DNA of 33,067 nt. It comes from Halanaerobium congolense. Lineage in GTDB: Bacteria; Bacillota; Halanaerobiia; Halanaerobiales; Halanaerobiaceae. Every line of letters begins with the position of its first letter. Within the stretch, counting starts at the first letter, position 1. The stretch lies in assembly GCF_004366375.1 (NCBI RefSeq), contig NZ_SOEF01000032.1, positions 1 to 33,067 on the forward strand, written 5' to 3'. Positions 213 through 29,600 of this stretch are shown here, piece after piece. The position numbers and the translations under genes were made by a program. The notes under the pieces were generated by a model, which was not told the DNA's origin, did not search any database, and saw only the letters and a program-made list of their open reading frames with translations.

Positions 213-2720
213 ATGCAAAAAAAAGTAGTTATAGTCGGTGGAGTTGCAGGAGGAGCAAGTACTGCAGCTCGTTTGCGAAGAATGGATGAAGATATTGAAA
301 TAATAATGATGGAAAAAGGAAAACATATCTCTTTTGCCAACTGTGGTTTACCTTATCATATTGGGGAAGTAATAAAGGAAAGAGATAAGTTATTAGTTCA
401 GACTCCACAATCTATGGAAGAGAGATTTGATATTGATGTTAGAATTCAACATGAAGCTCTCAAAATTAATCGTGAGGCAAAGCTAGTTGAAGTTAAAGAC
501 TTAAAAAGTGGTGAAGTATATAAAGAAAGGTATGATAAACTAGTTTTATCTCCAGGTGCAGAACCAATTAAACCACCACTTCCAGGTCTTGATTTAGAGG
601 AAGTCTTTACCCTGAGAAATATTCCTGATACAGATAAAATTAAAAATTTTGTAGATAAAAATAAGCCGAACCGCGCTGTAGTAGTAGGTGGAGGTTTTAT
701 TGGTTTGGAAATGGCCGAGAACCTTCATGAAAGAGGAATAGAAGTTTCGGTTGTTGAAATGATGGATCAATTAATGGGTTCACTTGATTATGAAATGGCT
801 GCAATGCTTCATAATCATCTTAGAACTAAGGGGATTGATCTGCATTTAGGAGATGGTATAACTGGTATTGAAGAAGCTGCAGGCAGAAAGGTAGTTAAAT
901 TACAGAGTGGTAGAACAATTAAAACTGACCTTGTCATTTTATCTATTGGAGTTAATCCACGGACTGAGCTGGCAGAAGATGCTGGACTTGAAATTGGAAG
1001 TAGTAAGGGAATTAAAGTAAATGAATATTTACAGACTTCAGATCCCAGTATTTATGCTATTGGTGATGCTATTGAAGTTAAAGACTTAGTGACAGAAAAA
1101 CCTGTTAGAATTCCTCTTGCTGGTCCCGCCAATAAACAGGGGAGAATAGCTGCTGATAATATATGTGGGAGGAAAGAGACATATAAGGGAACTCAGGGAA
1201 CTTCAATTGCCAAAGCTTTTGATTTAACAACTGCTTCCACAGGTGCTTCGGAAAAAAGACTTAAAGACTTAAAATGGGATTATCAGGTTGTTCATACAAA
1301 TTCCAATAATCATGCAGGTTATTATCCGGGGGCAGTACCGATGATGATCAAATTAATTTTTGCTCCTGATGACGGTAAAGTACTGGGAGCTCAAATTGCA
1401 GGTTATGAGGGAGTTGATAAAAGAATTGATGTTCTGGCTACAGCTGTAAGACAGGAAATGAATATTTATGACCTTCAGGAATTAGAACTTGCTTATGCAC
1501 CACCCTTTGGTTCAGCTAAAGATCCTGTAAATATGGTTGGTTTTGCTGCAGGGAACCTCTTAAATGGAATAGTAGAAACAGCTTACTGGCAGGAATTAGA
1601 AAATATAGATCCAGATCAGACGGTGCTTCTGGATATTCGAGAAAAAGTAGAAACTCAGCTGGGAAGTATTGATAATTCAGTTAATATCCCTTTAAACAAT
1701 TTGCGAGATAATTTAGATCAACTTGATCCTGAAAAAGAATATATAGTTTACTGTGCTATCGGCTTAAGAGGTTATATAGCCGCCAGGATTTTAACTCAAA
1801 ATGGTTTTAATAAAGTCCGCAATTTAAGTGGTGGCTATAAACTTTATAAAGCTGTTAAAGATGATCAGGAACAGGTTATTGAAGATCCAGCTGAAGCAGG
1901 TTATAATTCTGCTGAGAGTCCAGAAGAAGCCAATCTGGCTGCTAAAGATATGCTAAAACACGTTAAAGGTACAGTTGTAGAACTTAATGCCTGTGGACTG
2001 CAGTGTCCAGGACCTATTATGCAGGTTTATAAAAAGATGGAGACAATGGAAAATGGGGATATGCTTGAGGTAACAGCAACTGATCCCGGTTTTATGCAGG
2101 ACATTAAAGCCTGGGCCAAAAATACTGGGAATACAGTTTTAAGGATAGAAGAACTTGCTGATAAGATTGAGGTTACTCTTTTAAAAGGACAGTCTGTTGA
2201 AGCTCAGCAGGAAAGAGAAACAGTTCGTAATAAAGTTTCTCAACCAGTTCAAAAAGGAAAAACAATGGTTGTCTTTAGTGGTGAACTTGATAAAGCAATA
2301 GCATCATTTATTATTGCTAATGGGGCAGCTGCTATGGGTAATCAGGTAACCTTATTCTTTACTTTCTGGGGTTTAAATATTTTAAGAAAAGATGGTCCTG
2401 TTAATGCTGATAAGAACATGATGGAAAAAATGTTTGAAAAAATGATGCCTCAGGGTAGCAAAAATCTCCCCCTTTCAAATATGAATATGATGGGAATTGG
2501 GCCTAAAATGATCAGAGGAATTATGGACAAAAAAGGTGTTGATTCTTTAGAAGAATTGATAGAAAATGCTGTGGAAAATGGAGTTAGACTTGTCGCCTGC
2601 CAGATGACAATGGATATGCTGGGAATTAAAAAGAAAGAATTAATTTCTGGAGTTGAAGTTGGGGGAGTTGCAACTTTCTTAGGTTCAGCAGATGAATCTA
2701 ATATGAGTTTATTTATCTAA
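213..2720 (+). CDS. CoA-disulfide/persulfide reductase fused to rhodanese, TusA and DsrE-like domains
   Basis: This 835-residue cytosolic flavoprotein has four joined sulfur-handling modules. Residues 1-450 are a pyridine-nucleotide disulfide reductase: FAD loop GGVAGG near residue 9, active-site Cys44 in SFANCGLPYH as in CoA-disulfide reductases, and NAD loop VVGGGFIGLEMAE near 155. About 465-555 is a rhodanese domain with Cys514 in YCAIGLRG. About 590-660 is TusA-like, with CGLQCPGP and Cys598 as the sulfur carrier. About 685-835 is DsrE/DsrF-like with a conserved-looking Cys796. By family knowledge it reduces CoA disulfides or persulfides with NAD(P)H and relays sulfane sulfur between domains. 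The start has AGGGGGAA upstream. It is monocistronic, with a hairpin after it. Its position next to copper genes fits repair of copper-oxidised thiols, which is inference. The exact substrate is not known. Confidence 0.9.
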   Translation: MQKKVVIVGGVAGGASTAARLRRMDEDIEIIMMEKGKHISFANCGLPYHIGEVIKERDKLLVQTPQSMEERFDIDVRIQHEALKINREAKLVEVKDLKSGEVYKERYDKLVLSPGAEPIKPPLPGLDLEEVFTLRNIPDTDKIKNFVDKNKPNRAVVVGGGFIGLEMAENLHERGIEVSVVEMMDQLMGSLDYEMAAMLHNHLRTKGIDLHLGDGITGIEEAAGRKVVKLQSGRTIKTDLVILSIGVNPRTELAEDAGLEIGSSKGIKVNEYLQTSDPSIYAIGDAIEVKDLVTEKPVRIPLAGPANKQGRIAADNICGRKETYKGTQGTSIAKAFDLTTASTGASEKRLKDLKWDYQVVHTNSNNHAGYYPGAVPMMIKLIFAPDDGKVLGAQIAGYEGVDKRIDVLATAVRQEMNIYDLQELELAYAPPFGSAKDPVNMVGFAAGNLLNGIVETAYWQELENIDPDQTVLLDIREKVETQLGSIDNSVNIPLNNLRDNLDQLDPEKEYIVYCAIGLRGYIAARILTQNGFNKVRNLSGGYKLYKAVKDDQEQVIEDPAEAGYNSAESPEEANLAAKDMLKHVKGTVVELNACGLQCPGPIMQVYKKMETMENGDMLEVTATDPGFMQDIKAWAKNTGNTVLRIEELADKIEVTLLKGQSVEAQQERETVRNKVSQPVQKGKTMVVFSGELDKAIASFIIANGAAAMGNQVTLFFTFWGLNILRKDGPVNADKNMMEKMFEKMMPQGSKNLPLSNMNMMGIGPKMIRGIMDKKGVDSLEELIENAVENGVRLVACQMTMDMLGIKKKELISGVEVGGVATFLGSADESNMSLFI

Positions 2721-2891: not shown

Positions 2892-3215
2892 ATGATTAAT
2901 TTTGCTCATGGTAATGGCTGGGGCTCCAATGGCTTTGGTCATATGGATGGTTTTGGACACATGAACGGTTTTGGAGGCGGTATTTTTGGCTGGATAATGA
3001 TTCTCTTATTTGCTGCGCTTGTTATAACCGGAATAGTTTATTTAATTAAAAATATGAAAAATGATTCTGATAATAGCAGGAAAAATAATAATTATCGGCA
3101 AATAAAGAATAATTACCAAAAAGAAGATTCCGCTGTTAATATTGCCAGAGAACGTTATGCTAAAGGAGAAATTAGCAAAGAAGAATTGGATAAAATATTG
3201 AATGACTTGAAATAA
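2892..3215 (+). CDS. Small SHOCT-domain membrane protein with Gly/His/Met-rich N-terminus
   Basis: The protein has 107 residues. The N-terminus (1-30) repeats GFGHM and is rich in Gly, His, Asn and Met, a plausible soft-metal binding segment. One transmembrane helix spans about 33-53. A polar Asn/Lys linker follows. The last ~28 residues (ARERYAKGEISKEELDKIL) are a textbook SHOCT short C-terminal domain. AAGGAGGAAT gives a near-perfect ribosome site 5 bases before ATG. It is a single-gene unit between two hairpins, just before the CopB gene. SHOCT proteins are thought to mediate oligomerisation or membrane tethering, but their biochemical role is unknown. Related proteins in this window lie at 5710, 8231 and, decayed, at 28922. 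Confidence 0.8.
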   Translation: MINFAHGNGWGSNGFGHMDGFGHMNGFGGGIFGWIMILLFAALVITGIVYLIKNMKNDSDNSRKNNNYRQIKNNYQKEDSAVNIARERYAKGEISKEELDKILNDLK

Positions 3216-3267: not shown

Positions 3268-3357
3268 AGTTCTTGTTAAATAAAAACTGATATTTAATAA
3301 TGAAGTAAAATCAAAGCTGATAGAATTAATGTAATGCTCCGGCAGCAGGAAAAAAAG

Positions 3358-3386
3358 TTGAAAAAAAATTATCAAATTGATATAAT
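3358..3386 (+). promoter_or_regulatory. Promoter of the CopB-like ATPase gene
   Basis: TTGAAA (3358-3363), a 17-bp spacer, then a perfect TATAAT (3381-3386). Transcription would start near 3393, only ~34 bp before the ATG at 3427. Unlike the other copper-type promoters here, no TACC-N7-GGTA palindrome lies at its start site. Confidence 0.7.
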
Positions 3387-3426
3387 TTTACAAAGAGAAC
3401 ATAATAAGATAATAGGAGTGATAATA

Positions 3427-5373
3427 ATGGAACATCATGATGGTCATCAAAAAATGTTAAACGACTTTAAAAAGCGCTTTAAAATTTCACTGGTTCTAAC
3501 TATACCCATTTTGATTCTTTCTCCAATGCTCCAGGGGTTTTTTAACTACAGTTTTGATTTTCCTGGAAGTATATATGTTTTATTTTTGCTTTCTACAATT
3601 ATATTTTTCTACGGAGGCTGGCCTTTTTTAAGTGGTTTAAAAGACGAACTTTCAGATAAAAATCCGGGTATGATGACTTTAATTGCTCTTGCTATCTCTG
3701 TTGCCTATTTTTATAGTACTGCTGTTGTATTTGGACTTGAGGGTAGATTCTTTTTCTGGGAACTGGCAACTTTAATTGTGATTATGTTACTCGGACACTG
3801 GATAGAAATGAGATCGGTTATGGGTGCTTCCCGGGCTTTAGAAGAACTGGCCAAATTGATGCCCGATACAGCTCATAAGCTGGTTGATGGTGAGGTTAAG
3901 GACACTCCAATTAAAGAACTTCAAAAAGAAGATAAAGTGCTAATTAAACCCGGTGAAAAAATTCCGGCAGATGGAATTATCTTCGAAGGTAATAGTTATA
4001 TTAACGAGTCAATGCTGACCGGAGAATCTGAACCGGTAAAAAAAGAAATTGATGATGAGGTTATTGGTGGTTCAGTAAATGGTGATAGTTCAATTAAAAT
4101 AAAGATTGAAAAGGCCGGTGAAGATAGTTATCTATCACAGGTTATTAATATGGTTAAAGAATCACAGGCAGCCAAATCAAAAACCCAGGGCTTTGCCGAC
4201 AGAGCTGCTTTCTGGCTGACACTAATCGCAATTACTGCCGGAGTAACTACTTTTGGGGTCTGGTATGGGATTAGCGGTGACCTTGCTTTTGCTATTGAAA
4301 GAATGGCGACTGTAATGGTTATTACCTGTCCCCATGCTCTTGGTCTTGCCATTCCACTGGTAGTTGCGGTTTCTACAACTTTATCTGCCAAAAATGGTCT
4401 TTTGATTAGAAATAGAACAGCTTTTGAGAATGCACGCAAAATAGATACAGTTTTATTTGATAAAACAGGAACCCTGACTAAAGGAGAATTTGGGGTGCAG
4501 GATATAGAGATTTTTGCGGCTGATTATGATAGAGAAAAAGTCCTGAAAATAGCTTCAGCACTGGAGCAGGAATCAGAACATCCAATAGCGGCCGGAATTG
4601 TGGCTAAGGCAGAAGAGGAAAATCTAAAGATAGATAGTGTTCAGGATTTTGAGATAATGAAAGGAAAAGGAGTTAAAGCGAGACTTGATGGTCAGGAAAT
4701 GTTTGTAGTTTCACCCGGTTATCTTGAAGAAAATAATTTAGAAATACCGGATTCTGCTTTAAAAGAAGGTCCATTTACAGAGGTCTTTTTAGTAATTAAA
4801 GATCAGGTTATTGGTATGCTTAGACTGGCCGATAAGATTAGAGAAAGTTCCTATGAGGCAGTTCAAGAACTTAAAGATAAAGGTATTAAAGTTAAAATGC
4901 TGACCGGTGATAATCAAAAAACAGCTGCCTATGTCAGCAAAGAATTGGGCTTAACTGACTACTTTGCCGAAATTCTACCTGACGAGAAAGAAAAGAAGGT
5001 TAGAGAACTGCAGAATGAGGGAGCTTTTGTAGCAATGACAGGTGATGGAGTCAATGATGCTCCAGCTCTTGCCAGAGCAGATATCGGAATTGCAATCGGT
5101 TCCGGTACAGATGTAGCAGCCGAAACTGCTGATATTATTCTGGTAGAAAGTGATCCCAAAGATGTTGTCCAGCTTGTTAACTTCGGGAGTTTAACCTTTA
5201 AAAAGATGATCCAGAATCTTTTCTGGGCTACAGGTTATAATGCCTTTGCTATTCCTCTGGCTGCCGGAGTTCTCGCAGGTTATGGAATTATGATTTCCCC
5301 TGCTGTAGGTGCAGTACTAATGTCGATGAGTACAGTAATTGTAGCAATCAATGCTAAGATGTTAAAGTTTTAA
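3427..5373 (+). CDS. copB: P1B-type heavy-metal ATPase, CopB-like (CPH class)
   Basis: An integral-membrane ATPase of 648 residues that likely exports copper or silver ions. The start at 3427 is chosen because AGGAGTG precedes it and the promoter TATAAT lies inside the longer upstream reading frame, which begins at 3334. Family signatures are TGES at 198, CPH at 301-303 in the ion-conducting helix, the phosphorylation motif DKTGT with Asp345, ESEHP in the nucleotide domain, and GDGVND in the hinge. YN (604-605, GYNAFAIP) and MSMST near the C-terminus are the other two membrane signatures of the CPH class (P1B-3). The N-terminus is short, with only an HH/H cluster and no HMA domain. It complements the CPC-type ATPase at 15149. 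Whether Cu+, Cu2+ or Ag+ is the substrate cannot be read from sequence. Confidence 0.92.
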   Translation: MEHHDGHQKMLNDFKKRFKISLVLTIPILILSPMLQGFFNYSFDFPGSIYVLFLLSTIIFFYGGWPFLSGLKDELSDKNPGMMTLIALAISVAYFYSTAVVFGLEGRFFFWELATLIVIMLLGHWIEMRSVMGASRALEELAKLMPDTAHKLVDGEVKDTPIKELQKEDKVLIKPGEKIPADGIIFEGNSYINESMLTGESEPVKKEIDDEVIGGSVNGDSSIKIKIEKAGEDSYLSQVINMVKESQAAKSKTQGFADRAAFWLTLIAITAGVTTFGVWYGISGDLAFAIERMATVMVITCPHALGLAIPLVVAVSTTLSAKNGLLIRNRTAFENARKIDTVLFDKTGTLTKGEFGVQDIEIFAADYDREKVLKIASALEQESEHPIAAGIVAKAEEENLKIDSVQDFEIMKGKGVKARLDGQEMFVVSPGYLEENNLEIPDSALKEGPFTEVFLVIKDQVIGMLRLADKIRESSYEAVQELKDKGIKVKMLTGDNQKTAAYVSKELGLTDYFAEILPDEKEKKVRELQNEGAFVAMTGDGVNDAPALARADIGIAIGSGTDVAAETADIILVESDPKDVVQLVNFGSLTFKKMIQNLFWATGYNAFAIPLAAGVLAGYGIMISPAVGAVLMSMSTVIVAINAKMLKF

Positions 5374-5473
5374 GATAATAAGCAAAGTAAAACAATGATT
5401 ATGGTTTATAAAATTTAATAAAGTCATAAAGCAAAATTAAATAATAAATGATACTGAATAGTTTTTTTCTAGG

Positions 5474-5509
5474 GGGCTTTCTATTTCAAAGTAGAAAGCT
5501 CTTTTTTTT
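5474..5509 (+). terminator. Terminator of the CopB unit
   Basis: GCTTTCTA (5476-5483) pairs with TAGAAAGC (5492-5499), extended by a G-T and a G-C pair and followed by eight T residues. The T-tract runs directly into the next -35 box. Confidence 0.85.
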
Positions 5510-5561
5510 GACAAAATTAATCCTGAGTGTTATACTTTACTTATGGTACCCGATAGGGGTA
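5508..5561 (+). promoter_or_regulatory. Consensus promoter with CsoR-type operator for the SHOCT/PspA operon
   Basis: TTGACA (5508-5513), a 17-bp spacer and TATACT (5531-5536), followed at 5547-5561 by the palindrome TACCCGATAGGGGTA. The operator would cover the first transcribed bases, a repressing position. The stretch AATCCTGAGTGTTATACT across the spacer and -10 box recurs at 28730-28747, so the two promoters are duplicates. Confidence 0.8.
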
Positions 5562-5709
5562 TAATGTATTTATAAAATCTAGTTGTGCTAAGATTAATAA
5601 TGATGGTAACTCATAGTTTAAAGCTAAAATTCATAATCTCTTCACATTTAATTGTTATTATATAATTACGGGTTGAGGGTATAAAGCATTTAAAAAAGGA
5701 GTGAAAACT

Positions 5710-5949
5710 ATGATGAGATTTGGTTTAGGAATGATGGGAGGAGGGTTTTCCTTGATTTTTTGGATAATAATCATTATTGCTGTAATATATTATTTTAACA
5801 ATGGAAATATCAACAGTTCTGGTTCAGGGTATAACAGAAATAACTCTAATTATCAGGTAAATCAGGCTGAAGCAATTGCTAAAGAGCGTTATGCTAAAGG
5901 CGAAATAACTAAAAAAGAATTAGATGATATTAGAAATGATTTAAGATAG
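5710..5949 (+). CDS. Small SHOCT-domain membrane protein
   Basis: The protein has 79 residues. ATG 5710 is preferred to the in-frame GTG at 5701 because AGGAG (5698-5702) is correctly spaced only for the later codon. The layout is a Met/Gly start (MMRFGLGMMGGG), one hydrophobic helix at about 13-32, a Gly/Ser/Asn linker, and a SHOCT domain (IAKERYAKGEITKKELDDI) at about 54-79. It is the first gene of a five-gene run to 8458 behind a CsoR-type operator. Its molecular role is unknown. The SHOCT end could recruit the PspA-like or coiled-coil partners encoded next door, which is inference. Confidence 0.8.
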   Translation: MMRFGLGMMGGGFSLIFWIIIIIAVIYYFNNGNINSSGSGYNRNNSNYQVNQAEAIAKERYAKGEITKKELDDIRNDLR

Positions 5950-6029
5950 ATCTTGAAACATTAAAATAACAAATTAGTAAAAAGTATGACTTTATTATAA
6001 CTGATCTTTAATCTGGGAGGAGTTATTAA

Positions 6030-6734
6030 ATGAAAATATTTAAAAGAATGAAGAAAGTATTTGAGGCAAAGATGAGTAAATTTGTGGATGAGGTTGAGGA
6101 TCCAGAAGAACTCTTGGATATATCTCTGCAGGAGATGAAAGAACATTTACAACAGGTACAGAAGTCATTATTGGAGCTAACTACAATCAAAAAGGGTCTG
6201 GAAAAAGACTTAGATGATGTTAAAGATAAGGTAGAACTTGCCCAGGAGCAGGCGCAGACAGCTATGGATATAGAAAAAGAAGAACTGGCGCGTGCTGCTC
6301 TAGAGAAAAAGGCGGATTTAAATGATAAAAAAACTATTTTGAAAACTAAAATAGAGAAAATAGAGAATAAAATTGAAGTTATTAAATCCAATAAAAAAAC
6401 ATTAGCTGAACAAATTAAAAAGCTGGAAACAAAAAGAGAAGAGTTAACTTTTATAAATAAATCTGCCGATGCTCAGCTGGAAGTAAAAGAGATTATTACC
6501 GGGGCCAGCAGTGATATTACTGATTTAAATGAACAGATCAAAAGAGCTGAAGAAAAGATACAGAAGAAGGAAGCTAAGCTTTCTGCTATAGATGAGTTAG
6601 TCGCTAATGGTGAGTTAATAAATGATTTTAATTCAGAGGATGATATTGAAAAGTCTCTTAATCAAATAGAACGTGATTCAAAAATTGAAGAAGAACTTGC
6701 CAATCTAAGATCTAAAAAGATGGGAGATGCATAA
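6030..6734 (+). CDS. pspA: PspA/IM30-family membrane-protection protein
   Basis: The 234-residue protein is almost entirely helical coiled coil. The start MKIFKRMKKVFEAKMSKFVDEVEDPEELL and the helix LLDISLQEMKEHLQQVQKSL match the PspA/IM30/LiaH pattern: an amphipathic N-terminal helix, then long heptad helices with the typical AQTAMDIEKEELARAAL segment near 75-95. Such proteins are cytosolic, form ESCRT-III-like rods or rings on the inner leaflet and protect a damaged membrane. GGGAGG precedes the ATG. The stop is 2 bases before the next start, implying translational coupling. The operator upstream of the run ties it to the metal regulon rather than to the classical PspF or LiaR controls. The name is given for family only. 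Confidence 0.82.
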   Translation: MKIFKRMKKVFEAKMSKFVDEVEDPEELLDISLQEMKEHLQQVQKSLLELTTIKKGLEKDLDDVKDKVELAQEQAQTAMDIEKEELARAALEKKADLNDKKTILKTKIEKIENKIEVIKSNKKTLAEQIKKLETKREELTFINKSADAQLEVKEIITGASSDITDLNEQIKRAEEKIQKKEAKLSAIDELVANGELINDFNSEDDIEKSLNQIERDSKIEEELANLRSKKMGDA

Positions 6735-6736
6735 TA

Positions 6737-7375
6737 ATGGGATGTGGTGGATTCCATGAACTTTTTCGGGTCTATGACAGCAGAAATACAGGATATAATG
6801 ACAGGCGGCCGGATGACACTCAGGAAAAGATTTCCCTAATAAAAAGATTATATGCTGAAGGCAGGATTGGTAAAGACAGATATTATTCCCTTAAAGATAG
6901 GGCTTATGATGGAAATCTTTCCTTTGAGCAGTTGATGGATATTAAAGAATCGAGTCGTGATAACAGAGAAAATAGTTCACAGGATAGTGGACTAAAAGAA
7001 GATAAGCCAAAAGATAAAAACAAAAATGTCAATAAATATAAAGAAAAAATTAAAGAATTAAAAAGCAGTAAAGAAAAAGTTGATAGTATAAGATCAAAGA
7101 TTGAGGAACGCCTGAGCGAATTATATCAGGAAAAAGAAAAAACAGAGTCAATGGCTGAATCCATGGTATCTTCCAGTGAGGAAGCTGCCAGAGAATATAT
7201 AGGAAAAAAGATAGACCTTGAAGAAAATATTCAGGTATTGAAAAAGAGAGAAAAAGAATTAGAAAAACAGATTGATGAGATTGACAAAACAATGAAGATA
7301 ATAGATACAAAAATGCTTGATTATGAAGCTGTAAAATTACAGGAAGAATTAGAAAATATTAAAAAAGATATTTAG
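6737..7375 (+). CDS. SHOCT-like coiled-coil protein partnered with PspA
   Basis: This is a 212-residue soluble, charged protein with no signal peptide or membrane helix. Residues 27-70 (EKISLIKRLYAEGRIGKDRYYSLKDRAYDG) resemble one or two tandem SHOCT-type helical pairs. Residues 85-212 are a Lys/Glu-rich coiled coil. Within it, SSSEEAAREYIGKKIDLEEN resembles the matching part of PspA-like proteins, so it may be a divergent PspA relative or adaptor. Its start is 2 bases after the PspA stop (TAATAATG overlap region), so the two are very likely made together. I do not recognise a named family for the whole protein. A role linking SHOCT membrane peptides to the PspA scaffold is a hypothesis. Confidence 0.65.
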   Translation: MGCGGFHELFRVYDSRNTGYNDRRPDDTQEKISLIKRLYAEGRIGKDRYYSLKDRAYDGNLSFEQLMDIKESSRDNRENSSQDSGLKEDKPKDKNKNVNKYKEKIKELKSSKEKVDSIRSKIEERLSELYQEKEKTESMAESMVSSSEEAAREYIGKKIDLEENIQVLKKREKELEKQIDEIDKTMKIIDTKMLDYEAVKLQEELENIKKDI

Positions 7376-7388
7376 GGAGGAATTTATT

Positions 7389-8183
7389 ATGTTTAAAAAT
7401 AAAATATTTATTGTCTTAATAGCATTATTGTTGGTGGCTGGTATTTACTCAGCCGTGGGAGCACATTCAGGTTCGTCTAATAATAACATGATGGGTAATG
7501 GTTATAATGGTCAGATGAATGGTTTCAATAATTATCCAGACAACAACCAGGGTAATTATGGCATGATGGGTCCTAATGGCATGATGGGAATGATGGGCAG
7601 AGGTATGGGTTATGGTGGAATGATGAGAGGTTATGGACAAGGAATTAATAGAAATATTGATTACAGTCTTTCAGCATTAGGAATGACAGAAGAAGAAGTT
7701 AAAGATTTAGCTGTTGAACTTGTTGATAGACAGTTTGGCTCAGATTATCAGATTAGTGATATTTTCATTTTTAACGATTCACCATATTATATTTCAGTTG
7801 TAGAAAAAGATAGTGATCAGGGAGTCTTCGAATTATTGTTTGATCCTTATAGAAAGGTGATTTACCCAGAATATGGACCAAATATGATGTGGAATACAGA
7901 AAATGGAATGTCTTATATGATGGGCTGGAGTGCACCAGTAGAAGAGAATATGATGCCACGTCAAGAAGTTCTGGAAAACGCAGAGAAATTTGCTCAGGCA
8001 AATGATTTTATGATAGAAGATGAAGGACATCAGTTCCCGGGTTATTATACATTCCATACAGCAGACACTAATGATAATACAACCGGTATGCTGAGTGTTA
8101 ATTCTTATACAGGTCAGGTTTGGTATCATAACTGGCATGGAGATTTAGCTGAAGTTATTAGTGTCAAAGAACATCAAGAATAA
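7389..8183 (+). CDS. Exported Met/Gly/Asn-rich protein with PepSY-like C-terminal region
   Basis: The protein has 264 residues. Residues 1-25 are a signal peptide (VLIALLLVAGIYSAVGA). About 30-85 is a low-complexity stretch with many MMG, GMM and NG repeats; clustered methionines like these bind Cu(I) in known copper proteins. The rest (about 92-264) has two alpha/beta units. The end, SVNSYTGQVWYHNWHGD, resembles the PepSY strand motif (V-x-x-x-TG-x-V). Additional MM pairs occur near 160-200. GGGAGGAATT precedes the ATG and the gap to the upstream gene is 13 bp. It likely works outside the membrane as a metal buffer or envelope sensor. The fold assignment is tentative. Confidence 0.65.
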   Translation: MFKNKIFIVLIALLLVAGIYSAVGAHSGSSNNNMMGNGYNGQMNGFNNYPDNNQGNYGMMGPNGMMGMMGRGMGYGGMMRGYGQGINRNIDYSLSALGMTEEEVKDLAVELVDRQFGSDYQISDIFIFNDSPYYISVVEKDSDQGVFELLFDPYRKVIYPEYGPNMMWNTENGMSYMMGWSAPVEENMMPRQEVLENAEKFAQANDFMIEDEGHQFPGYYTFHTADTNDNTTGMLSVNSYTGQVWYHNWHGDLAEVISVKEHQE

Positions 8184-8230
8184 AAAAACATTTAATAATT
8201 AAGGATAAATATAGAAAGGGGTTTTAATAA

Positions 8231-8458
8231 ATGGGATATTGTTTTGGTTTGAATGGATATGGTTCTGGTTTATTAGGTAGTTATTGGTGGATAATGCCTT
8301 TATTATTCTGGGGCCTTATTATAACAGGTGTTGTGTTCTTTATAAGATCACAAAAAAACCGTAGTAGCCGAGAAGCTTTAAGTATTTTAGAGCACGAGTA
8401 TGCTTTAGGAAATATTACAAGAGAAGAGTTTAAAACTCGCAAAAAAGACTTACAATGA
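8231..8458 (+). CDS. Small SHOCT-domain membrane protein
   Basis: A 75-residue protein that ends the five-gene run. A Gly/Tyr-rich start (MGYCFGLNGYGSGLLG) with one Cys precedes a helix at about 20-41 rich in Trp and Phe. An Arg/Ser linker follows, then a SHOCT domain (LEHEYALGNITREEFKTRKKDL) at about 50-75. AAAGGGG is the ribosome site. It ends with TGA, which shows that TGA is an ordinary stop in this genome. It is more divergent in the helix than the copies at 2892 and 5710. Confidence 0.78.
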   Translation: MGYCFGLNGYGSGLLGSYWWIMPLLFWGLIITGVVFFIRSQKNRSSREALSILEHEYALGNITREEFKTRKKDLQ

Positions 8459-8490
8459 TCTTAAATAAATATTTGATACAGATATTATCT

Positions 8491-8528
8491 GAAAAGACCT
8501 TTTCTAGTAATGATATGGTCTTTTCTTT
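8491..8528 (+). terminator. Rho-independent terminator of the SHOCT/PspA operon
   Basis: GAAAAGACC (8491-8499) pairs with GGTCTTTTC (8517-8525) and is followed by TTT. It lies 32 bp after the last gene. Confidence 0.75.
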
Positions 8529-14242: not shown

Positions 14243-14527
14243 TTGAGTTCACTTTGTCAGGATGAAAAAAAAGATTTAATAGTTAGATTGCGAAGAATAG
14301 AAGGACAGGTTAGAGGTTTACAGAGAATGATAGAGGAAGATCAATATTGTGTTGATGTTTTAACACAAGTTGTAGCTGTTAGAGGTGCTTTAAAAAAAGT
14401 AGGACTTAATGTTTTAGATAATCACACTCATGGTTGTGTTCAAAAAGTGATAAAGTGTGAAAATGAAGAAGATAACCAGATTGTAATAGATGAATTAATG
14501 GGTGTTTTGGCAAAATTTGCTGATTAA
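14243..14527 (+). CDS. csoR: CsoR-family copper-sensing repressor 1
   Basis: A 94-residue all-helical DUF156 repressor. The TTG start is chosen because AAGGGAGG (14227-14234) is 8 bases ahead and the paralogue at 28104 begins at the same residue. The Cu(I) ligand set C-H-C is complete: Cys36 (QYCVDV), His61 and Cys65 (HTHGC), with the characteristic RRIEGQVRGLQRMIEED helix. His61 argues against the persulfide sensor CstR, which lacks it. Apo-protein would bind TACC-N7-GGTA sites and let go when Cu(I) binds. It lies between the YHS gene and the RseC and CopA genes. An additional Cys72 is not part of the core site. Confidence 0.93.
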   Translation: MSSLCQDEKKDLIVRLRRIEGQVRGLQRMIEEDQYCVDVLTQVVAVRGALKKVGLNVLDNHTHGCVQKVIKCENEEDNQIVIDELMGVLAKFAD

Positions 14528-15148: not shown

Positions 15149-17629
15149 ATGAATAGTAAAACAACATTAAAATTAGAAGGAATGACATGTTCCAGCTGTG
15201 CTCAAACTATTGAGAAAGCTTTAAATAAAACAGATGGTGTCGATCAGGCACAGGTTAATTTTGCGGCAGAAAAAGCATATGTTGATTATGATTCTTCTAA
15301 AGTCGACGAGAATAAGTTAGTTGAGGTTGTAAAAGGAACTGGTTATGATGTGAAACAGGAGAGAGAGAAAGTAACACTTAAAATTGGTGGTATGACCTGT
15401 GCCAGCTGTGCAACAACAGTGGAAAAAGCATTAAATAAAGCAGATGGAGTATATGAAGCGAGTGTAAATATTGCTACTGAAAAAGGGACGGTTGAATATG
15501 ATCCAGGTGTGTTATCAAAAAACGATTTTAAGGAAATAGTAGCTAAAACGGGATATGATGTTACAGGTTTTGAAGGTGACGAACAAAATGTAGATGAGGA
15601 AGCAGAAGATTTAAAGAAAGTTAAAAAAGCTAAAAGAAACATGTGGGGAGCCTGGGCATTTACAATTCCCATAATTATCTGGATGATTCCAGAGATGGTT
15701 TTAGGAGTAGCCTGGCCAAGTGAGACAATATTTGATTTAGGTATGATGTTGTTGGCACTTCCACCATTATTTATCTTTGGACGTAAAACATTTGTAACTG
15801 CATATAAATCAGTTAGCCATGGTGGAGCCAATATGGATGTATTAATTGCTATCGGAACCGGAGCAGCCTTTGCTACAGGTCCTGCGGTATTCTTTACACC
15901 AATAGCAAACTATGCCGGTGTGGCAGCAATGATTATGGCCTTTCACTTAACAGGTAGATATATTGAAGAAACAGCTAAAGGTCGAGCTTCACAGGCGATA
16001 AAAAAACTGTTGGAGTTAGGGGCTAAAACTGCAACTGTTATAGTTGACGGCGAAGAAAAAGAAGTCCCAGTTGATGAAGTCCAACCAGGAGATATAATGC
16101 TGATAAAACCCGGTGAGAAAATTCCGACAGATGGTGAGATAATTGAAGGGAAATCAACGGTGGATGAATCAATGGCAACTGGAGAATCGATGCCCGTAGA
16201 AAGAACTGTTGGTGATGAAGTAATTGGAGCAACAGTCAATCAGAATGGTTTAATTAAAGTGAAAGCAACTAAGGTGGGAAAGGATACATTCTTATCTCAG
16301 GTTATCAAAATGGTAGAAGAAGCGCAGGGAACAAAAGTTCCTATTCAGGAATTTGCTGATAAAATAACAAGTATTTTTGTTCCTGCTGTCTTAGTTATTG
16401 CTACAGCAACATTTATTCTATGGCTGGCTTTTCCTGAAACTTTTCGTAGTGTTGGATTCTGGGCCCAGTCATTTTTACCCTGGGTAGACCCTACACTTGG
16501 GACAATTACACTTGCCTTTTTCGCAACAATAGCAGTTTTAGTAATTGCCTGCCCCTGTGCTCTTGGTCTAGCAACACCAACAGCTTTAATGGTAGGAAGC
16601 GGAATTGGAGCAGAAAATGGAGTTTTAATCCGTAAAGGTGAAGCCATTCAGACAATGAAGGATGTTCATACAATTGTTTTCGACAAGACGGGTACAATAA
16701 CCAAAGGAAAACCAGAAGTAACGGATCTGGTGACTACCAATGGTACAAGTGAAAACGAACTATTAAAGTATGCAGCCAGTGTGGAATCAGGATCTGAACA
16801 CCCACTGGGAGTATCTATAGTGAATGATGCAAAAGATAGAGGTATTGAAGTAAAAGAAATAGAAGACTTTGGTTCTGTGACAGGAAAAGGTGTAAAAGCC
16901 ACTATAAATGGAAAAGAAGTTCTGGTAGGTAGTCGTCGATTAATGGAAGAAGCCGGATTAGATGCAAGTGACTTAGAAGATGAAATGATCAGACTTGAAA
17001 AAGAAGCAAAAACTGCAATGCTGGTAGCTACAGAGGATAAACTGCTTGGTATAGTTGCAGTAGCAGATGCTTTAAAAGAAGATTCAATTAAGGCGATAAA
17101 AGAATTGCATAAATTAGGACTTCAATCAGCAATGATAACAGGAGATAACCAGAGAACAGCAGAAGCTATAGCAAATGAAGTCGGTATTGATCATGTGGTA
17201 GCTGAGGTATTACCGGATGGTAAAGTAGATGAGATTATGAAGCTGCAGGATAAATTTGGTACTATTGCAATGGTAGGAGATGGAATTAATGATGCACCAG
17301 CTCTGACTCAGGCTAATGTAGGTATTGCAATAGGAACTGGGACAGATATAGCAATCGAATCATCTGACATAACACTTGTTAGAGGGGATTTATCAGCAGT
17401 AATAACAGCAATTAAACTATCGAGAGCAACTTTCAGAAAGATTAAGCAAAATCTATTCTGGGCCTTTTTCTATAACACAGTTGCTATTCCAGTAGCTGTT
17501 GTTGGATTACTGCACCCAGTTATTGCAGAAATAGCAATGGCAACCAGTTCAATCAGTGTTGTAACAAATGCTAATATGTTACGTAGAGTTGATGTACAGC
17601 CCAGTTATGCTCCAAAGAAAAAAGCATAA
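15149..17629 (+). CDS. copA: Cu(I)-exporting P1B-1 ATPase
   Basis: A membrane ATPase of 826 residues. Two N-terminal HMA domains carry GMTCSSC (Cys14, Cys17) and GMTCASC (Cys84, Cys87). The membrane ion site is CPC at 468-470, the mark of Cu(I)/Ag(I) P1B-1 pumps. TGES, DKTGT with Asp512, GSEHPLG and [10 protein letters not shown] complete the catalytic set, and the late helices contain YN and MxxSS ([18 protein letters not shown]). Length and order are those of Bacillus/Enterococcus CopA. TATGGAGGTG is the ribosome site. It ends in a Lys-rich tail and a hairpin terminator. With copB at 3427 the cell has two distinct copper-type pumps. Regulation by CsoR through the 15106 site is likely. Confidence 0.96.
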
Positions 17630-28557: not shown

Positions 28558-28718
28558 ATGCCTAAATTTAAGGTGATGAAAATTGGTCTTAATTTATTAG
28601 AATTAATAATATTTTTTTAATAAATTCACATTCTTTTCACATTAATATTTTAAAATAGTCTTAGATCAAAGTTGACAGGACAGTAACAAAGAAATATTCG
28701 ATTATCACGATATTGTTG

Positions 28719-28772
28719 TTGACAGGAGCAATCCTGAGTGTTATACTATGTTTAAGATACCTAGTGGAGGTA
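28719..28772 (+). promoter_or_regulatory. Duplicate copper-type promoter and operator
   Basis: TTGACA (28719-28724), a 17-bp spacer and TATACT (28742-28747). TACCTAGTGGAGGTA (28758-28772), with arms extendable to ATACCT/AGGTAT, lies 10 bases after the -10 box, the same distance as at 5547. The spacer and -10 copy the promoter at 5508, so this region arose by duplication. Confidence 0.8.
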
Positions 28773-28814
28773 TATTGGAAAGTTTGAACTTAAGTTTCAA
28801 AGGATGTCACTTAA

Positions 28815-29167
28815 ATGAAAAGAAATTTAATTATTACTTTAGTTATATAAACAGTCATTGTTGCAGGAGTTAATTTTTGCTTAACCTGGATTTGGCCTGG
28901 TAAGATGGAATGTGATCTGGAATGATGGGCGGAGGAGCTTCAATAATTTTCTGGAGAGTAATCATTGGAGTGGTTTATTATCCATTCAGAGAATATACTA
29001 GAAAAAATAACCACAGATATGATAATCATAAACATGTTGGCTCCGGCAATAAAGAGCGAAGTCGTTTTGATGAGAGTAGTCCAGAAGAATTAGCAAGACA
29101 GTGTTATGCAAAAGGTGAAATTTCTAAAGAAGATTTGAACGAAATACTGGACAACTTAAGCATTTAA
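28815..29167 (+). pseudogene. Decayed SHOCT-domain membrane protein gene
   Basis: Translation from ATG 28815 (AAAGGA upstream) gives MKRNLIITLVI and hits TAA at 28848; the same frame then continues as a plausible helix to TGA 28923. In a second frame an 81-residue stretch from 28922 holds MMGGGASIIFW, a shortened helix containing an Arg (FWRVIIGVVYY), a Pro, and a good SHOCT end (ARQCYAKGEISKEDLNEIL). It resembles the gene at 5710, which has the same promoter. One stop, one frame change and charged residues in the helix point to decay. The C-terminal 81 residues may still be expressed, but ATG 28922 has no good ribosome site. Confidence 0.65.
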
Positions 29168-29210: not shown

Positions 29211-29600
29211 ATGAGCAATTATGGAATTAGAAAAACAGTTAAACTTTCTTATCAGGAAACAATTGACAAAGTAAAAGAAGAGCTAAAAGAAGAAGGATTT
29301 GGTGTGCTGGCAGAACTCGATATGAAAAAGATATTTAAAGAAAAGTTGGATAAAGAGATGAGCAATTATGTTATTCTTGAAGCCTGTAATCCTGCTTTTG
29401 CTTTTGAAGGAATAGGAGAAGAACCTGAACTTGGTCTTTTGCTTCCCTGTAATGTTATAATTTATGAAAATGATAATCAAGAGGTTAATTTGGCAGCAAT
29501 TGATCCTGAAAAAGCACTTGGAATGTCAGAGAATAAAAAAGTTAACGAAATAGCACAGGAAATCAAGGAAAGACTGGAGCGAGTTATAGAAAACGTTTAA
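29211..29600 (+). CDS. DUF302-family protein
   Basis: The protein has 129 residues. The family core is seen in SYQETIDKVKEELKEEGFGVLAELDMKKIFKEKL (15-48), YVILEACNPAFAFEGI with Cys59, and GLLLPCNVIIYE with Cys80. There is no signal peptide. AAGGGGGAAAA precedes the ATG. DUF302 proteins often accompany heavy-metal, copper and sulfur genes, and the two cysteines may bind metal or persulfide; the biochemical role is unknown. It is downstream of a copper-type operator with no terminator between. Confidence 0.85.
   Translation: MSNYGIRKTVKLSYQETIDKVKEELKEEGFGVLAELDMKKIFKEKLDKEMSNYVILEACNPAFAFEGIGEEPELGLLLPCNVIIYENDNQEVNLAAIDPEKALGMSENKKVNEIAQEIKERLERVIENV

Follow-up and report, generated by a model that had tools for sequence, protein, structure and literature searches.

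A PspA operon with a SHOCT-headed partner protein under candidate copper-type control in Halanaerobium congolense

Introduction

The closest described systems to the locus reported here, a five-gene unit containing pspA on a contig of Halanaerobium congolense (NZ_SOEF01000032.1), are the phage shock protein (PSP) and Lia systems (PspA-PspBC-PspF and LiaFSR-LiaIH). The stretch analysed, referred to below as the window, has 33,067 nucleotides and is the complete 33-kb contig C32 of a host genome of 2.83 Mb (G000). The PSP and Lia systems share with this locus a PspA effector, small membrane partners and control of the two-component type. However, no Pfam or NCBIfam match to PspB/PspC, PspF, LiaI/LiaF or a Toastrack partner was obtained among the operon products, which instead include a partner protein with a SHOCT-like head and a predicted helical hairpin, and the operon carries copper-type operators. 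PspA neighbourhoods containing SHOCT-like proteins and coiled-coil proteins reminiscent of PspA were described by Ravi et al. (2024; PMC11237479), and both kinds of protein recur near PspA here; the main text of that study does not describe the pair of PspA and coiled-coil protein or its regulon, and the words copper, PepSY, P-type and Halanaerob do not occur in it.

On the regulatory side, the type-2 operators of CsoR follow the rule TAC-N9-GTA (PMC3902906). CsoR-copZA regulons resemble the present case in these operators, in a repressor with Cys-His-Cys ligands and in CopA as a target, but differ in that here a pspA operon is a target as well. In Corynebacterium glutamicum, the response regulator (RR) of the CopRS pair drives a copper P-type ATPase gene, and its site is an 11-bp direct repeat, TGAAGATTTnnTGAAGATTT (PMC3140484). 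Read on the other strand, TGAAGATTTnnTGAAGATTT has a TCTTCA core and an 11-bp period in common with a repeat in Halanaerobium, which, in contrast to the CopRS site, precedes PspA, SHOCT and PepSY genes too, and for which the RR is a candidate only.

Operon structure and gene products

The five genes, named here SHOCT1, PspA, CC (coiled-coil protein), Met-PepSY and SHOCT2, are consecutive open reading frames on the plus strand with intergenic gaps of 2–80 bp and apparently form a single operon. All five gene products had been named in the original prediction, made from the letters of the window alone, and all five reading frames were confirmed. The features of the unit are as follows.

5471–5504: inverted repeat with a T-rich tail, terminator-like, before the five-gene unit
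5508–5536, plus strand: promoter P1, TTGACA-N17-TATACT with an extended -10, 11 of 12 consensus positions
5547–5561, plus strand: candidate CsoR type-2 operator TACCCGATAGGGGTA (TAC-N9-GTA)
5630–5649, plus strand: 11-bp direct repeat TTCATAATCTCTTCACATTT, between the two TAC-N9-GTA sites and before a second -10 box (TATAAT), candidate site of an OmpR-family RR
5667–5681, plus strand: second TAC-N9-GTA site TACGGGTTGAGGGTA, which reads TACCCGGTAAGGGTA in the paralogue and in Halanaerobium saccharolyticum
5710–5949, plus strand: SHOCT1, a 79-residue peptide with a single transmembrane helix and a C-terminal SHOCT tail (PF09851, 19.8 bits; alignment of 13 relatives)
6030–6734, plus strand: PspA/IM30, 234 residues (PF04012, E 2.4e-28; closest solved structures PspA/Vipp1, E 9e-30)
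6737–7375, plus strand: CC, with an MGCGG start, SHOCT-like helices and a long helical hairpin, putative PspA partner (alignment of 12 homologues, hhalign, AlphaFold2 model)
7389–8183, plus strand: Met-PepSY, Met-rich and exported, with two PepSY-like domains in tandem
8231–8458, plus strand: SHOCT2, a 75-residue membrane peptide with a SHOCT tail (92% identical copy in a paralogous PspA-CC operon)
8491–8525, plus strand: likely terminator hairpin GAAAAGACC...GGTCTTTTC with a T-rich tail after the unit, read by eye

The product of 6030–6734 is certainly PspA, as predicted: its PF04012 match covers residues 3–231 and scores 99.7 bits, where 33.9 would suffice. The small peptides align well with 13 relatives, seven of which match PF09851 at E ≤ 0.01 (best E 8e-8); the window members themselves match this SHOCT profile with scores (22.4 bits for SHOCT0, a further peptide upstream of the unit, 19.8 for SHOCT1 and 13.2 for SHOCT2) below the gathering cut-off of 27 bits.

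CC is predicted to consist of a SHOCT head followed by a helical hairpin resembling those of PspA and ESCRT-III proteins. Its N-terminus begins with MGC in 11 of the 12 homologues and with MCGG in the remaining one (G209), so that the cysteine is invariant, and several family members carry extra GCGG/CC repeats. The SHOCT-like N-terminus had already been recognised, and it aligns with the SHOCT peptides in hhalign (E 4e-4), with helices at residues 28–72 of the model; what had been overlooked is the probable PspA-like nature of the protein. After the head, the model shows two antiparallel helices of 51 and 64 residues forming a hairpin, mostly with pLDDT above 85, which aligns with residues 41–128 of PspA (hhalign Prob 80.7). 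CC lacks the helices that come after the hairpin in PspA. The top seven Foldseek matches in the PDB are all Vipp1/PspA with a probability of 1.00, but with E-values of 0.16 or weaker, and a comparison of the CC family with the sequences of solved structures returned generic coiled coils only, such as mitofusin and SMC. Given the weak Foldseek E-values, and a fold comparison that ties CC with unrelated hairpins, a PspA-like origin of the hairpin is rated no higher than likely.

Met-PepSY had been described in the original prediction as exported, Met-rich and PepSY-like. It has a signal or transmembrane helix and 23 methionines, 12 of them within a disordered segment (residues 27–86), and its model contains two PepSY-like alpha-beta-beta-beta repeats resembling CD1622 (Z 6.2), YpeB (Z 6.0) and YpmB (Z 5.2). 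PepSY (PF03413) is matched at E ≤ 0.01 by 14 of 47 relatives and not by the window member, and the family gave chance-level matches only against the sequences of solved structures.

CsoR-type operators and the 11-bp direct repeat

Control of the unit by a copper-type operator, as originally proposed, is supported by the distribution of the sites. The pattern TACCC-N4-GGGGTA, with at most one mismatch, has nine matches in the window on both strands against 0.2 expected, and CsoR boxes are also present at copA and at YHS genes. In the whole 2.83-Mb genome there are three exact copies of the box, namely at 5547, in the promoter of the paralogous pspA operon and in a gyrB-like gene; the last (G000:C3:34986) was rejected as a regulatory site and taken as chance, as it lies inside the gene. 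Both CsoR proteins keep the ligands C36/H61/C65 and have the copper sensor RicR as their best NCBIfam match, and judged from sequence the genome thus appears to contain both parts of a CsoR regulon, the type-2 operator and a C-H-C repressor. A region of about 60 bp around P1 is repeated before the paralogous pspA operon and a CopM-like operon, both on contig C14 of the host, in H. saccharolyticum and at window position 28719, where P1 is accompanied by a degenerate CsoR box (28719–28773) located 3' of a second copy of the direct repeat.

The direct repeat had escaped the original prediction, as had the paralogous PspA-CC operon. Its position before a -10 box fits an activator of the OmpR family. 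A search of the genome with TTCANNNNNTCTTCACATTT at one mismatch gave six sites, compared with none for the reversed control; five of them precede both pspA operons, a CopM-like/SHOCT/DUF302 operon, a SHOCT gene and a SHOCT/DUF302/Met-PepSY operon, and the sixth lies on C5. A looser copy is found upstream of a Spy-like gene that has TolC and RND genes behind it, and another lies ahead of SHOCT3 in the window (28625). As the strict motif TTCAY-N6-TTCAY overlooked the copies in L188 and L189, it was broadened to TTCA-N7-TTCA, and both were counted. Of 17 pspA genes linked to CC, 13 have the broader motif within 420 bp upstream, where shuffled sequences would give 0.18; among 18 pspA genes that lack CC, none has it (Fisher p 1.6e-6). 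The 17 include many related genes, and with one pspA per genus and the stricter motif p is 0.0025. Two of the four exceptions have the repeat farther upstream: in G280 it precedes a DUF302-like gene, and in G470 it opens the copA cluster. The strict motif also occurs upstream of 7 of 72 Met-PepSY loci, including loci of Chloroflexota, against 0.12 expected. In a further locus (L207, G471), pspA and CC are broken by several stops and the TTCA repeat is retained.

Conservation and paralogues

The host genome contains one further PspA, encoded in the PspA-CC-SHOCT2 operon on C14, the products of which are 90% (PspA), 80% (CC) and 92% (SHOCT2) identical to those of the window. A paralogue of Met-PepSY is located on C58 together with SHOCT and DUF302-like genes and without PspA. 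In H. saccharolyticum (G001; L035/L088) the whole five-gene set is present in the same order; the CPH-type Cu ATPase before its SHOCT1 is reduced to a remnant of 123 residues (L035, 8179–8550), while the enzyme is intact in a further genome (G003, L036). In G003 the five-gene set itself is found in pieces on short contigs. A member of another family of the order (G019) carries SHOCT, Met-PepSY and SHOCT2 genes after two copA genes, and among them a deletion remnant that fuses the N-terminus of PspA, out of frame, with the C-terminal end of CC. The five-gene order is therefore older than the split of the families and was cut down later by deletion.

Adjacent pspA and CC genes occur in seven Bacillota genera, and conservation thus extends beyond the one strain, the complete operon being present in two species. 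In a wider search, the pair was located in Petroclostridium (L091), in G426 and G388 (one genus), in G410, G280, G141, G473, G474 and G475 (a further genus), in G463 and G470, in G209 and, as a divergent, truncated pair, in G239. Matches were obtained in 5 of 59 genomes of the class and, phylum-wide, in 9 of 398. A tree of 31 PspA proteins requires one label change to account for the CC-linked members, with a support of 75/48, or 95/93 without G209, some branches being long. The conserved core is the PspA-CC pair and not the five-gene set. The five families, taken together in the original prediction, are not a conserved unit, as parts of the set are missing both from the paralogous operon and from most Met-PepSY loci; at 78 of the 80 loci in the Met-PepSY family, the flanking DNA compared contains no PspA. 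Met-PepSY and SHOCT form a separate, widespread copper-linked module, with a SHOCT gene nearby at 42 of the 80 loci and CopA-like genes at 25.

Copper genes accompany the pair in several of these genomes. In G470 (L209), CopA, PspA, CC and a Met-rich gene lie on one strand with a YHS gene ahead, and CopA-PspA-CC apparently form one operon with PspA-CC directly downstream of copA. PspA-CC, an OmpR-type RR, a kinase and CopA are side by side in G426 and G388; a CsoR box and a YHS gene are located 1 kb upstream of PspA-CC in G474; and in Petroclostridium, Met-PepSY-SHOCT is about 2 kb from PspA-CC on the opposite strand.

The best candidate for the regulator acting at the direct repeat is the OmpR-type RR and kinase pair on C3 of the host genome (L195), a choice that we infer from sequence likeness. 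This RR shares 51% identity with the one next to Met-PepSY in Petroclostridium and 52% with the one next to PspA-CC in G426, and the extracytoplasmic segment of its kinase is rich in Met and His, as are, to a lesser degree, those of the other kinases. In Petroclostridium (L089, 3680–5675), LemA-like, TPM-like and small Met-rich genes lie between the two-component system with a Met-rich sensor and Met-PepSY-SHOCT.

Proposed function and alternative explanations

The operon is probably a copper-induced envelope-protection unit under dual control by CsoR and an RR, in which PspA would repair the membrane, CC would link it to the SHOCT peptides and Met-PepSY would buffer Cu(I). Here the identity of the metal, the assignment of the regulators, all protein contacts and membrane repair are what we infer. 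Copper entering the envelope and the cytosol would cause derepression as cytosolic Cu(I) rises, the release of CsoR being established for the family, while the kinase may sense envelope copper via its Met/His-rich loop, so that the OmpR-family RR would be phosphorylated and activate expression of SHOCT1-PspA-CC-MetPepSY-SHOCT2. PspA would then polymerise on the damaged inner membrane, as is established for its family. Judging from its domain make-up, the CC hairpin may bind PspA and its SHOCT head the tails of the SHOCT peptides; by binding both, CC is proposed to recruit or cap PspA polymers at these membrane peptides. Outside the membrane, exported Met-PepSY would buffer Cu(I), a role suggested by its Met composition and by Cu ATPases at about a third of the loci. 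The layout originally envisaged, with PspA inside, the SHOCT peptides in the membrane and the Met-rich protein outside, is supported.

Gene content, conservation, promoter elements and copA in an apparent operon with PspA-CC were observed directly. In favour of this reading are the CsoR boxes at both pspA promoters, the C36/H61/C65 ligands, the 11-bp repeat before CC-linked pspA genes, copA beside PspA-CC in G470, G426 and G388 (co-operonic in the first), the two-component system with a Met/His-rich sensor, the hairpin matches of CC and the neighbours of Met-PepSY. Several observations weigh against it. The paralogous C14 operon has neither SHOCT1 nor Met-PepSY, the candidate two-component system does not adjoin the operon in the host genome, and its RR (150.9 against 279.2 bits) and kinase (191.8 against 292.6 bits) both score under the NCBIfam cut-offs for heavy-metal (CusR/CopR) systems, TIGR01387 and TIGR01386. 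The Foldseek E-values of CC (0.16) are non-significant, and a comparison by VIA (Z 11–12) does not separate it from unrelated helical hairpins. A proximal repeat is missing from G470 and from three other CC-linked loci, among them the distant, truncated relative in G239. For Desulfovibrio alaskensis, a copper study lists a pspA gene as strongly lowered (PMC8836040). In Escherichia coli, a copper-boosting drug raises pspA and pspD with or without copper (PMC11270900). Judging by these reports, copper does not generally induce PSP; a regulon dedicated to it would be new.

A general envelope-stress operon, in which a BaeR/CpxR-like regulator at the TTCA repeat senses membrane or periplasmic damage and copper is one of several triggers or merely shares the CsoR input, is unlikely, though the most probable of the alternatives. 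The RR and kinase score better against PhoB, BaeR and WalK-type models than against heavy-metal models, one target of the repeat is the Spy-like protein with its TolC/RND genes, and the paralogous operon on C14 is near Trk and not near copper genes. On the other hand, nearly all other targets of the repeat are copper-associated (CopM-like DUF305, DUF302, SHOCT, Met-PepSY), the sensor loop of the kinase is rich in Met and His, and CsoR boxes and CopA occur within the same promoters or operon. The nearly invariant MGC/MC-GG start of the 12 CC homologues and the additional cysteine repeats in several of them would suit a scaffold in which PspA-CC assemblies bind copper or get rid of it, for instance by forming vesicles, and do not repair membranes, but PspA has no known metal-binding motif and the remainder of CC has few Cys or His; we consider this explanation improbable.

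Control by sulfur or persulfide through a CstR-like protein in place of copper is suggested by a CoA-disulfide reductase that carries rhodanese, TusA and DsrE-like parts as fusions and is encoded close to the copper cluster (window 213–2720), and by a DsrE-like gene upstream of the paralogous C14 operon. We regard it as very improbable, as the His that binds copper is retained in the two CsoR proteins, which match RicR best, and copA and YHS genes bear the same boxes; a persulfide sensor in place of CsoR is disfavoured by C36/H61/C65. There is similarly little to be said for pspA and CC as mere passengers of a copper-resistance island with no role in copper: their patchy distribution and the loss by deletion in G019 would fit, but the promoter repeat and the copper neighbours are retained in independent settings across several families.

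Within the copper-induced envelope-protection reading, a more specific proposal, which we make tentatively and which may well not hold, is a copper-dedicated, two-subunit ESCRT-III-like membrane machine in which PspA polymers are recruited or capped, at the SHOCT membrane peptides, by a SHOCT-capped hairpin subunit, devoid of the amphipathic N-terminal helix and the distal helices of PspA, when the copper-sensing regulon fires.

Genomic context

The window carries further copper-related features.

2892–3215, plus strand: SHOCT0 membrane peptide, before the CPH-type ATPase
3334–5373, plus strand: CPH-type Cu P-type ATPase upstream of the operon (TIGR01511, 621.6 bits, cut-off 397)
14243–14527, plus strand: CsoR-family repressor with C36/H61/C65, adjoining copA
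15149–17629, plus strand: CopA Cu+ ATPase with two HMA CxxC motifs, 81–83% identical to CopA of G019
28104: second CsoR-family gene of the window
28625–28643, plus strand: the 11-bp direct repeat again, in a second copy ahead of SHOCT3 and the DUF302-like gene
28922–29167: SHOCT3, followed by a DUF302-like gene at 29211–29600

Between the promoter and SHOCT3, the start of a DUF305 (CopM-like) gene with an early stop is present at 28820–28925, the intact counterpart of which is found on C14 (L063, 5688–6254). Two other kinds of gene recur at such loci. A UbiE-type S-adenosylmethionine (SAM) methyltransferase of about 200 residues lies beside copper or PspA-CC loci of different genera (L034 6235–6795; L037 891–1559; L089 700–1341; L190 3663–4289; L193 5460–6062; L209 2954–3577; L210 6689–7096), and Lgt-like (prolipoprotein diacylglyceryl transferase) genes, often adjoining a DUF2933-like small protein, are found in or beside copper clusters (L209 9341–9916; L188 246–983; L042 11192–12019; L191 10688–11467).

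Implications

Taken as a copper-type variant of the PSP response, the system has strong genomic support and is apparently undescribed so far; in the literature on SHOCT and copper and on PspA and copper, with most subscription papers outside the coverage, no account of the PspA-CC pair was found. Accounts of copper toxicity usually centre on export, chelation and damage to Fe-S clusters. If the proposed function is true, the coupling of copper export with an ESCRT-III-family protein would mean that damage to the membrane is an inherent component of copper stress in anaerobes, for which bacteria maintain a dedicated branch of membrane repair built into copper resistance. It would also open SHOCT, which is very common as a domain and has no known function, to experiment, with defined partners in the SHOCT peptides, CC and PspA, and with a simple inducer.

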